32,027 bases of DNA, taken from assembly GCA_017450695.1 (NCBI GenBank), contig JAFSTA010000057.1:1-32027 (forward strand). The letters are read 5' to 3'. This DNA comes from Kiritimatiellia bacterium. Its GTDB lineage: Bacteria; Verrucomicrobiota; Kiritimatiellia; RFP12; UBA1067. Numbering within the stretch: position 1 is the stretch's first letter; every line of letters begins with the position of its first letter. The notes under the pieces were generated by a model. The model was given only the letters and a program-made list of their open reading frames with translations. It was not told where the DNA came from and did not search any database. This document shows, piece by piece, positions 2,419 through 16,325 of this stretch. A program made the translations under genes and the position numbers.

Positions 2419-5124
2419 TCATCTGAAGTACTCCACGTCAGGGTTGAGGAAGCCAAGGGAGTAAATCTGAGGCAGGAGCTTGGCGCGGAGCGCATCATGT
2501 TTCTCGCGCAGAGAATTTTCCTCACGCGGAGGCGCAGAGTCGCGGAGGTCTTTCATCGCGTTGCGGAGCTGGTAGTAGCCGACATCCCAAGTTTCGATCT
2601 TCCAGTCCATCCACGGCGTGTGCGTGATGTTCGCGTAGAACTCGCGGTAAAGCCGCCGCGCCGCATCAAGGACGGCACAAGCTTCGGGAGAGAGAGCTTT
2701 TCCAGCCAGCCACTTTGCTAGAAAACGGTCTTCGTTCGCGGTTGCAAGCTGTGTGGCGATGTCGCCGTGGGCACACGGCCACCGACGCACTTCCTCCAAC
2801 AAGAACGGATAGAGGTTGTTCTGAATCTGCCACGTCCGCCCTTGGTACTCGACATTCCGTAGTGAAACTGCGCAGTTGGAATCGGCGAAGGCCGACCAAA
2901 CGACGCAATCGGTGACAAATTCAGATGGGAGACCTGTCGCCGCGTCAGTTGTTTCAGCCGCAAAGAACGCAGAGTTCGCAAAGTCTTTGTGCTCTTTGCG
3001 TTCTTTGCGGCTTTCCCATTTAGTTGTCGGCGCGTAGAACGCGTCGCGGTCGTTCGTCCATGTCGCCTTGGGAATCTTCTTCACGGCGTGAAGCACCATC
3101 GCCTTCTCGAAGTTTTCAGGCGTTACGGAAAACGCCCCCGCGTTCGCATACGGCGCAGAGAGGATGAACACGCTATTGGTGTGCTGGAAGTCGTCGCCAT
3201 TGCTCGACACGGAACAGATGAAGCCGGGCGCGACGTGGTTGCGCTTGTCCTTGTTGTCCGTCTTGAGGTTGAACGCGCTGACAAATGTCGGCATAATGGA
3301 CTTGCCGTCCCACTTAGGACGCGGACACCACTTGTTGAGCATTGCCATACGCTCTACCGACGGGAAGACCTTCGTGCCGATCTTCTCAACTTCCCTGTTG
3401 AACACGTCAAGAGTAATCGACTGCATTGAAAGATGTTTCTTCTCGGCGAGATTCCAGACGAGAAAGCCGACAGGAAAGTTGCCAGTCGCGCCGTAGAAGC
3501 ATTTGATTGGGAAAATAAATCCGCGCTCGTACTGGTACTGGAAGAAGCCGTCACGTATCTTCTGGTCGTTGTTGGAGTTGATGTACTTCAACTTCGAGAA
3601 CATGCAAAGATGCGCCTGCTTGTCCTTGAACTCCTTGGATATGCGAAATAGGAACTGTGTGAAGAGTTCGCGGCTCGCCTCGCCATAATCCTCCTCGTAC
3701 ATCCATTCGCGGATTGTCGTCTTTGAAACCGTGTCCTTCGACTTCTTCCCCGTTTCGCCGCCGACGGTGTTGGCCGTTGCGAACGGCGGATTGATGAAGA
3801 TTATCCACTTGATGTTCGGATTCGCGAGATCGGCGACGAGATTCGGCGGCATCTTGCGCGTCTGGCCGAATGTCATCTGCCCTGCGAGCGCAGGTATGTC
3901 GTCCGCGAGATAGTCATACTGAAAACACGTTGCGGCGGGAAATATCTTGCGGCAGTAGTCGGCGTCCTCCTTGTCGAGCGTGGAGATGTAGCAGTAGGGG
4001 AGCGCAGAGGACGGCAGTTCGAATTCGAGGTTGCCGGTGCCGGCTGCCATGTCCCAGAAGCGGTACTCGCCGCTCTTCCACCATTCGCGGCCAATCGTGC
4101 GTTCAAGGTAGTCAAGCCCCTTCGCGGCGAATTCGACTGGCGTGTAGAACTCGCCGGTGAAACGGCGGCGGAAGTCCTCGGTGATACGGTCGGCCTTCTG
4201 GCGGATGCGCGTCATCGCGGGCGGCGGAACCTTCTCGTAGTTCTGCCAGAAGTGCTGGTACTTCTCGGGCTGGATTGACTTCGGGATATAACCCTCGGCA
4301 CCGCTCACGGAGAAGAGAACCTGACCGTCCTGCGCGACAATGGACTTTCCCTGCTCAATATCGGCAAAGAAGTATTCCGATGACTTTCGTCCGTTGCGGA
4401 CATACGCGCCAAAAAGCCCGTCCCAGTAGTCGAAGACATCGAGGAAGTTTTCTTCCGTGATAGTCTTTTTGCCGAGCAATTCAAGGAAGGTTGTTTGATG
4501 CGTGAGGTGTTCGTGGCACAGCTTGACGAACTGCTCTTCCTCAGCCGGGTTCGAGAGATCGTAGATGTAGGGTATTTTTAACAAACGGATTTGTTCGCCG
4601 CTCACTCGGCTCACGGCGGGAGGGACGCAACTTGTTGCGTCCGAGGCGGCGGTCGCAGTAAACTGCGACCCTCCCGTATCGCGAACGCCGTTAGGCGTGA
4701 GCAAATCCGCTTGTTTTAAAAACGCCGCCAGTATGTCCCCCACAAGCTTCGGGCAGGGCGTGGAGGGGGCGCGGTCCCAGTCGTAGCGATCGCCCTTAGC
4801 GGCGTAGAACTTCGCATAGGCTTTCGTCTCAGCGAAGAACGCCTCGTTCTTATCGACAACACAGATGACGGGCGGCAGTGGATATCGTGTAAGCCCCGCG
4901 CCAAACTTGAGAAGCCTCGCGTAGTACATCGTCTGCGCAAGGACTCGCGCCACGTTCTCGGCGTTCTTGAAATTGCGGTCGTACTTGAACTCGAAAAGGA
5001 CGTGTTCGGTGTAATGGTCGATGCCGCGCAAGGCGAAGATTTTCATCTTGAAGAACTTACAGAATTCCGCCTTGACCTCTTCCTCTTTCGCGCAGGGGCG
5101 CAGACTTTCGTAAAGATGCTTCAT
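2419..5124 (-). CDS. Single-chain restriction-modification-like protein: PD-(D/E)XK-like N-terminus plus N6-adenine DNA methyltransferase
   Basis: The product is 901 residues. Near the N-terminus, RGIDHYTEHVLFEFKYD (about 33-49) gives an Asp followed by Glu-Phe-Lys, as in PD-(D/E)XK nucleases. After a linker, FTGEFYTPVEFAAKGLDYL (about 322-340) precedes methyltransferase motif I, WDMAAGTGNLE (about 357-367), and catalytic motif IV, INPPFA (about 444-449), the N/D-PP-Y/F box of gamma-class N6-adenine methylases. The remaining 450 residues probably hold target recognition. This order resembles type IIG/IIS enzymes, in which cleavage and methylation share one chain and no separate S subunit is needed. 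None is encoded nearby. Residues about 137-183 are specified by an in-frame palindromic element, listed separately. The gene lies 49 bp after the ThuA-DUF6807 gene, in an otherwise catabolic gene row. Specificity and activity are unknown. Confidence 0.8.
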   Translation of the reverse strand: MKHLYESLRPCAKEEEVKAEFCKFFKMKIFALRGIDHYTEHVLFEFKYDRNFKNAENVARVLAQTMYYARLLKFGAGLTRYPLPPVICVVDKNEAFFAETKAYAKFYAAKGDRYDWDRAPSTPCPKLVGDILAAFLKQADLLTPNGVRDTGGSQFTATAASDATSCVPPAVSRVSGEQIRLLKIPYIYDLSNPAEEEQFVKLCHEHLTHQTTFLELLGKKTITEENFLDVFDYWDGLFGAYVRNGRKSSEYFFADIEQGKSIVAQDGQVLFSVSGAEGYIPKSIQPEKYQHFWQNYEKVPPPAMTRIRQKADRITEDFRRRFTGEFYTPVEFAAKGLDYLERTIGREWWKSGEYRFWDMAAGTGNLEFELPSSALPYCYISTLDKEDADYCRKIFPAATCFQYDYLADDIPALAGQMTFGQTRKMPPNLVADLANPNIKWIIFINPPFATANTVGGETGKKSKDTVSKTTIREWMYEEDYGEASRELFTQFLFRISKEFKDKQAHLCMFSKLKYINSNNDQKIRDGFFQYQYERGFIFPIKCFYGATGNFPVGFLVWNLAEKKHLSMQSITLDVFNREVEKIGTKVFPSVERMAMLNKWCPRPKWDGKSIMPTFVSAFNLKTDNKDKRNHVAPGFICSVSSNGDDFQHTNSVFILSAPYANAGAFSVTPENFEKAMVLHAVKKIPKATWTNDRDAFYAPTTKWESRKERKEHKDFANSAFFAAETTDAATGLPSEFVTDCVVWSAFADSNCAVSLRNVEYQGRTWQIQNNLYPFLLEEVRRWPCAHGDIATQLATANEDRFLAKWLAGKALSPEACAVLDAARRLYREFYANITHTPWMDWKIETWDVGYYQLRNAMKDLRDSAPPREENSLREKHDALRAKLLPQIYSLGFLNPDVEYFR
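4575..4722. repeat. Nested palindromic element inserted in frame within the nuclease-methyltransferase gene
   Basis: The segment is bounded by imperfect 17-bp inverted repeats, AACAAACGGATTTGTTC (4580-4596) and its partner GAGCAAATCCGCTTGTT (4699-4715), matching at 15 of 17 positions. Inside them GCTCACGGC (4609-4617) pairs with GGCGTGAGC (4694-4702) at 8 of 9, and GGGAG (4618-4622) pairs with CTCCC (4671-4675). The core holds two hairpins: GGACGCAA-CTTG-TTGCGTCC (4623-4642) and GGTCGCAGT-AA-ACTGCGACC (4651-4670). The coding frame stays open across it, adding about 47 residues of low predicted structure between LAAF and IPYIYDLS. The nested arrangement resembles protein-coding palindromic elements such as those of Rickettsia. 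Kinship with the intergenic hairpins in this window is an inference. Confidence 0.8.
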
Positions 5125-16096: not shown

Positions 16097-16118
16097 GAAG
16101 CGGCAGGAGTGCCGCTTC
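16097..16118. other. Hairpin GAAGCGGCA-GGAG-TGCCGCTTC
   Basis: A perfect 9-bp stem closes a GGAG loop in the gap (15973-16325) between the phosphoesterase remnant and the end of mutL. No T-run follows on either strand. Apart from this hairpin and the one at 16241, the gap holds only the degenerate module noted above and no gene. Confidence 0.6.
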
Positions 16119-16240
16119 CCCGATCCGGGCGGAGAGACCGCGTCGATTCCGGGATGCATGCACGATGCGGATGCGCCCGAATACGACGGACTCCTTTCGT
16201 TTGCAGAGCGGACGCGACGGGGCGCATCCCTCCCAATTCA

Positions 16241-16258
16241 GGCAACGGGGACGTTGCC
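16241..16258. other. Hairpin GGCAACG-GGGA-CGTTGCC
   Basis: A perfect 7-bp stem with a GGGA loop is followed by CCTCCCG. It lies 68 bp beyond the mutL stop codon and could act on the mutL transcript end, although no T-run follows. It shares its loop with the hairpin at 8126-8141. Confidence 0.55.
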
Positions 16259-16325
16259 CCTCCCGTACTCAGCTCAGTGAGAGAAATGGCGGCGACAATT
16301 CAGAACTTCTACACATCGCGCCTCC

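Follow-up and report, generated by a model that had tools for sequence, protein, structure and literature searches.

Two stacked palindromic repeats in frame in a methyltransferase-like gene of a gut Kiritimatiellia bacterium, and a putative nuclease-bearing form of the outer one

The 32,027-nucleotide stretch of DNA considered here (hereafter the window; contig JAFSTA010000057.1 of assembly GCA_017450695.1, from a Kiritimatiellia bacterium) contains a gene for a nuclease-methyltransferase-like protein in which palindromic DNA lies in frame (Table 1). Searches with the protein in Pfam, PADLOC and PDB gave zero matches, and no known domain was found. Its homologues are 77–84% identical among rumen Kiritimatiellae of the same family of the Genome Taxonomy Database (GTDB) and about 42–51% identical in Verrucomicrobia and Bacteroidetes, and the named homologue records are rumen or gut Kiritimatiellae and Lentisphaerae metagenome-assembled genomes (MAGs).

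Table 1. Host gene and palindromic features in the window
Feature	Position	Strand	Remarks
Host gene, 901-residue nuclease-methyltransferase-like protein	2419..5124	-	Open reading frame (ORF); N-terminal D..EFK motif, later GTG and NPPF motifs
F1, the outer palindrome, split by F2	4580..4715	-	Arms 4580-4614 and 4678-4715; translation QADLLTPNGVRD...VSRVSGEQIRL
Inner element F2	4618..4675	-	GGGAG, 20-nt hairpin, 8-nt spacer, 20-nt hairpin, CTCCC; translation TGGSQFTATAASDATSCVPP
Second in-frame palindrome, F4, linker site 2	2953..3015	-	GCCGCAAAGAACGCAAAGAGCACAAAG and its inverse; residues ~702-724; folding z -6.0
Probable half-remnant of a CTCTGCG-type element, linker site 4	2520..2550	-	CCTCCGCGACTCTGCGCCTCCGCGTGAGG; full palindromes at site 4 in relatives

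A sequence-only reading of the window had proposed that 4575-4722 is a single palindromic element, nested at four levels of pairing, that is read through without breaking the frame and adds about 47 residues. The nested structure is real. The insert spans 4576-4716; its arms (4572-4605 and 4690-4723) pair over 34 nt at 74%, and inside them are two perfect 9-bp hairpins (4623-4642 and 4651-4670), with a GGGAG/CTCCC pairing that closes the two together. Folding of the RNA, which the same reading had suggested for both strands, gave z scores of -6.7 (plus strand) and -8.0 (minus strand), and that of the DNA gave -5.5; in none of the three cases did any of 200 shuffles reach the same stability. 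The frame through the insert is open across all 901 residues, and the predicted peptides from its translation include QADLLTPNGVR and the GGSQFTATAASDATSCVPP region. An insertion is present, as had been proposed, but it is slightly smaller, with a net addition of 132–135 nt, or 44–45 residues, relative to insert-free homologues. The sole Rfam match, to a miRNA precursor family, scored 20 bits where the gathering score is 170, and is a chance match. Motifs resembling GCCTAAC/GTTAGGC were spotted by eye in the outer part, but the layout differs from that of an integron attC site, and this candidate was rejected.

What did not stand is the view of the insert as one element. A genome search with 4570-4730 returned 68 matches that split cleanly into an outer-only set (F1) and an inner-only set (F2), each with its own copies elsewhere. 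Because the two sets are separate, a single nested element is ruled out, and the window holds an F2 inside an F1. The window's own genome was read as a 307-kb sample that included the window, all genomes used were drafts or MAGs, and copy counts are inflated by copies that share descent. Copies of F1 and F2 were found, as the sequence-only reading had anticipated for its element, in genes and spacers of both this genome and related Kiritimatiellae. F1 occurs without F2 as a solo form of 71–83 bp, the composite with F2 being 136 bp. Three F1 copies stand in tandem on contig C66 (65479-65771) with a period of about 105 bp, their halves about 10 nt apart with no sequence inserted between them, and others lie on C269, C37, C93 and further contigs. 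Across genomes F1 copies are up to 88–90% identical over their full length, with 26 matches in genome G008 and 12 in G017, and identical palindrome arms recur on distant contigs and in unrelated genes. The nesting itself recurs: in another genome an unrelated DNA methylase gene (L053) contains the left part of F1 together with F2, in frame. Elsewhere in the window, 16097-16259 contains F5 and F2-type single hairpins, the first in a short predicted ORF and the others apparently intergenic.

The inner family could be followed further. A pattern search detected F2 doubles in 32 of 97 genomes of the GTDB family, with up to 57 per genome (nine copies in the window's own genome fit the pattern) and zero control matches. 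Among the copies read with their surroundings, 84 of 90 have a length of 1 mod 3. The frame of F2 that encodes GG...VPP is open for a median of 528 amino acids (at least 200 in 70 of 84 copies), other same-strand frames are far shorter and the sole other long frame is antisense, a comparison somewhat biased in favor of the GG...VPP frame, by whose greatest length the strand was picked. Whereas stops close most frames of F1, most or nearly all frames of F2 lack them, and so stops do not account for the frame preference of F2. Pfam domains were recognized in 27 of 30 scanned host ORFs, and the hosts include CTP synthase, prolyl-tRNA synthetase, pyruvate-ferredoxin oxidoreductase, pyruvate formate lyase, MmeI-type enzymes and glycoside hydrolases. 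The stems of F2 covary: over 27 copies (52 nt), 98.4% of cells were paired and 61 were changed on both sides, giving a score of 0.307 as compared to 0.067 for shuffles (0 of 500) and at most 0.054 for slid controls, measured at free positions since the scan had fixed some stem positions. In some host genes (L184, L188 and L157) F2 half-units recur in tandem, again in frame, as in ADAQERVPPHADAQERVPPHADAQE, which suggests local expansion after insertion.

In homologues of the host protein the 44–45 residues are never conserved, an outcome for which the sequence-only reading had proposed an alignment. They are absent from RUG10963 L065, L068 and L087 and from all outgroups, and other relatives have different palindromes in their place. 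The same holds for four linkers of the protein, which in relatives are occupied by members of different families (F1 alone, F2 types, a CACAGAG-type F3, a CACAAAG-type F4, F5, F7 and more), always in frame, and in some relatives are empty. Homologues have solo F1 in frame at sites 2 and 3, and site 2 is empty in L062, L065, L068, L071, L072, L087 and the outgroups. Because the outgroups (Akkermansia sp., Spartobacteria, Cytophagales, Bacteroidales and others) have no inserts at any of the four linkers, the difference represents gain rather than loss. In an AlphaFold2 model built from 17 window and locus sequences (mean predicted local distance difference test score, pLDDT, 76.8), the segments with pLDDT below 50 include 140-181 (the F1+F2 insert), 702-723 (the F4 insert) and 862-865 (site 4), and for the F1+F2 insert the prediction is a disordered loop. 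One homologue, in UBA3624 (L089), has residues 1-135 fused to 785-901, an in-frame deletion of the middle between two insertion linkers that possibly arose by recombination between elements.

CTP synthase offers an independent case. In 30 aligned proteins of the GTDB family, the core is near-identical while three linkers vary (before DIVLCEIGG, after EAEE and before ISERHRHRYE), each holding, according to species, either a short native linker or a peptide from differing palindromes of the F2, F3, F4 and F11 types. Palindromes of these families are inserted in frame in unrelated protein genes and are absent from homologues.

A candidate for a longer form of the outer class emerged from the surroundings of F1. 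Directly downstream of the three-copy array on C66 is a gene of the GxxExxY family (TIGR04256; PDDEXK_3, PF13366, in Pfam); a fourth F1 (G000, C66 66194-66269, L009) overlaps the 3' end of that gene. Inverted-repeat flanks with a score of at least 16 were present at 48 of 69 GxxExxY genes of the GTDB family, as compared to 11 of 1,500 random intervals, and in a phylum-wide sample at 14 of 29 such genes, as compared to 0 of 377 nearby control intervals. The arms are those of F1, F3-like, F4-like and F11 elements, ACCACGGAATACACGG and others. At one locus (L277) the GxxExxY gene is enclosed by a single split F1, the left arm of which agrees at 36 of 36 positions with a copy that is in frame in another genome. 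Solo palindromes of the F1, F3 and F11 families share terminal inverted repeats with gene-bearing elements, as miniature inverted-repeat transposable elements (MITEs) do with their autonomous parents, except that the enclosed gene encodes a PDDEXK_3 nuclease rather than a DDE or HUH transposase. Because GxxExxY genes are flanked by matching inverted repeats, with one inside a split F1, the simplest reading of these sequences is that the solo palindromes would be gene-less forms of nuclease-bearing elements. That the GxxExxY nuclease moves the solo copies is, in our estimate, an even bet. The broader proposal, that GxxExxY proteins represent an unrecognized class of small mobile element, widespread in the phylum in its gene-bearing form, whose terminal inverted repeats are left as gene-less palindromes that enter Kiritimatiellae proteins in frame, we put forward tentatively, at slightly less than even odds. 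Among the papers available for searching, none was found to place GxxExxY in a mobile element, and nothing relevant turned up on GxxExxY or on repeats in Kiritimatiellae.

We favor, with a probability of roughly 0.78, the interpretation that the insert consists of two stacked, dispersed mobile palindromes lying in frame in the methyltransferase gene, the outer one belonging to a class with a nuclease-bearing long form. Dispersal and the occurrence of filled and empty sites suggest that the palindromes are mobile. F1 would have inserted into a solvent-exposed linker of the protein and F2, a REP-like double hairpin, would have landed inside the F1 already there. Both would be translated, probably as a disordered loop tolerated by the folded core, and the host protein presumably stays active despite its inserts. 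Purifying selection would keep only copies with an open frame in linkers. The full-length form of the F1 class (F1, F3, F4, F11 and relatives) would enclose the GxxExxY gene, and the solo palindromes would be gene-less forms mobilized in trans. Several observations weigh against parts of this interpretation. No GxxExxY gene was found in G008, a genome 84% complete, despite its 26 F1 matches; palindromes such as F1 may just as well serve the nuclease as targets or substrates; no enrichment of F2 beside Y1 transposase genes was found; neither a transposition event nor exact junctions or target-site duplications could be defined, the flanks in pairs of filled and empty sites being too diverged for junctions; and many inserts take the place of a few linker residues rather than adding cleanly.

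Could all the families instead be of the repetitive extragenic palindromic (REP) type, moved by Y1 transposases of the REP-associated tyrosine transposase (RAYT) kind, with the GxxExxY genes as passengers that landed in them? Y1_Tnp genes are present in 83 of the 97 genomes, F5 hairpins occur at their flanks at 0.48 per kb as compared to approximately zero elsewhere, and F2, with two short hairpins in inverted orientation and fixed end tags, has the architecture of REPs and bacterial interspersed mosaic elements (BIMEs) as found with RAYTs (REPtrons). Yet F1, F3 and F11 are found beside GxxExxY genes and not beside Y1 genes, the inverted repeats at GxxExxY genes are phylum-wide, and G017, an incomplete genome, yielded no Y1 gene despite 12 F1 matches. 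We consider this explanation unlikely. A Y1 transposase as sole driver was rejected, as it is F5 and not F2 that is enriched around Y1 genes, and the copy number of F2 has no obvious relation to the number of those genes. Unlike classical REPs, tagged GTAG or CGTC, F2 is tagged GGGAG/CTCCC in the scanned copies (the scan required this tag), and most F2 doubles are intragenic and in frame. The narrower idea that a RAYT-type Y1 transposase moved F2 is doubtful, if less so than its extension to all families. F2 lies near a Y1 gene only on C150, with a Y1 match that falls short of the cut-off: a Y1-transposase-like ORF (G000:C150:4172-4616, L095 / L135; sub-threshold PF01797) contains two in-frame F2 copies and shares one frame with an upstream DUF1016_N domain. 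The other Y1 transposase gene of that genome (G000:C137:7013, L094) contains repeated peptides, RSDGASPS and SDGALAVV, which resemble additional repeats in frame.

Spread by recombination of linkers, through gene conversion between homologues or horizontal transfer of alleles, would explain why the same linkers are filled again and again and why the site 2 alleles have a common flanking DAATG-like stretch whichever element is present. It may account for part of the spread, but as the general explanation in place of transposition it is quite improbable given that the same element is found in unrelated genes and spacers and that the F1/F2 nesting recurs in the methylase gene of L053. Local creation of the palindromes by polymerase template switching could correct the arms against each other, in keeping with F2 stems that differ between copies while pairing is kept; identical arms in unrelated genes and on distant contigs, together with full-length F1 identity across genomes, make it the most improbable of the alternatives. 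Scarcely less improbable is that the hairpin is never translated, being bypassed by the ribosome or removed from the RNA. Mitochondrial byp elements of yeast are a precedent, as mobile hairpins inside protein genes that the ribosome skips. The elements described here are likewise mobile-looking hairpins inside genes, but their frame is kept and would be read: the lengths of F2, its stop-free host frames and the predominance of one frame argue against bypass, because a skipped insert would need none of them.

The likeness to Rickettsia palindromic elements that the sequence-only reading had drawn is supported by dispersal and by filled and empty sites, with the refinement that there are two nested elements, many families and a candidate enzyme for the outer class. 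Those elements are palindromes of about 100–150 bp that fall into several families and lie in frame in genes of no relation to one another, whose proteins tolerate them (PMC10969869, PMC3733652); REPs within genes have been described as well (PMC3733652). The Kiritimatiellae repeats, dispersed palindromes of similar size, resemble them in these respects, a comparison of behavior and not a claim of membership, the hosts being unrelated. They differ in belonging to another phylum, in rumen bacteria, in forming nested composites, in that several families compete for the same linkers and in that one class has a nuclease-bearing long form.

Descriptions of palindromic DNA lying in frame have come mainly from Rickettsia, and the literature consulted names no enzyme for its spread there (PMC10969869, PMC3733652). 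It is now seen in gut bacteria, in at least 10 families, in essential genes and at recurrent linkers, and such recurrent in-frame inserts could be studied as a natural form of insertional mutagenesis in proteins. For GxxExxY, a nuclease family that is common and uncharacterized, the inverted-repeat flanks suggest a first idea of function, and they make the identity of the mover of such palindromes a directly testable question.
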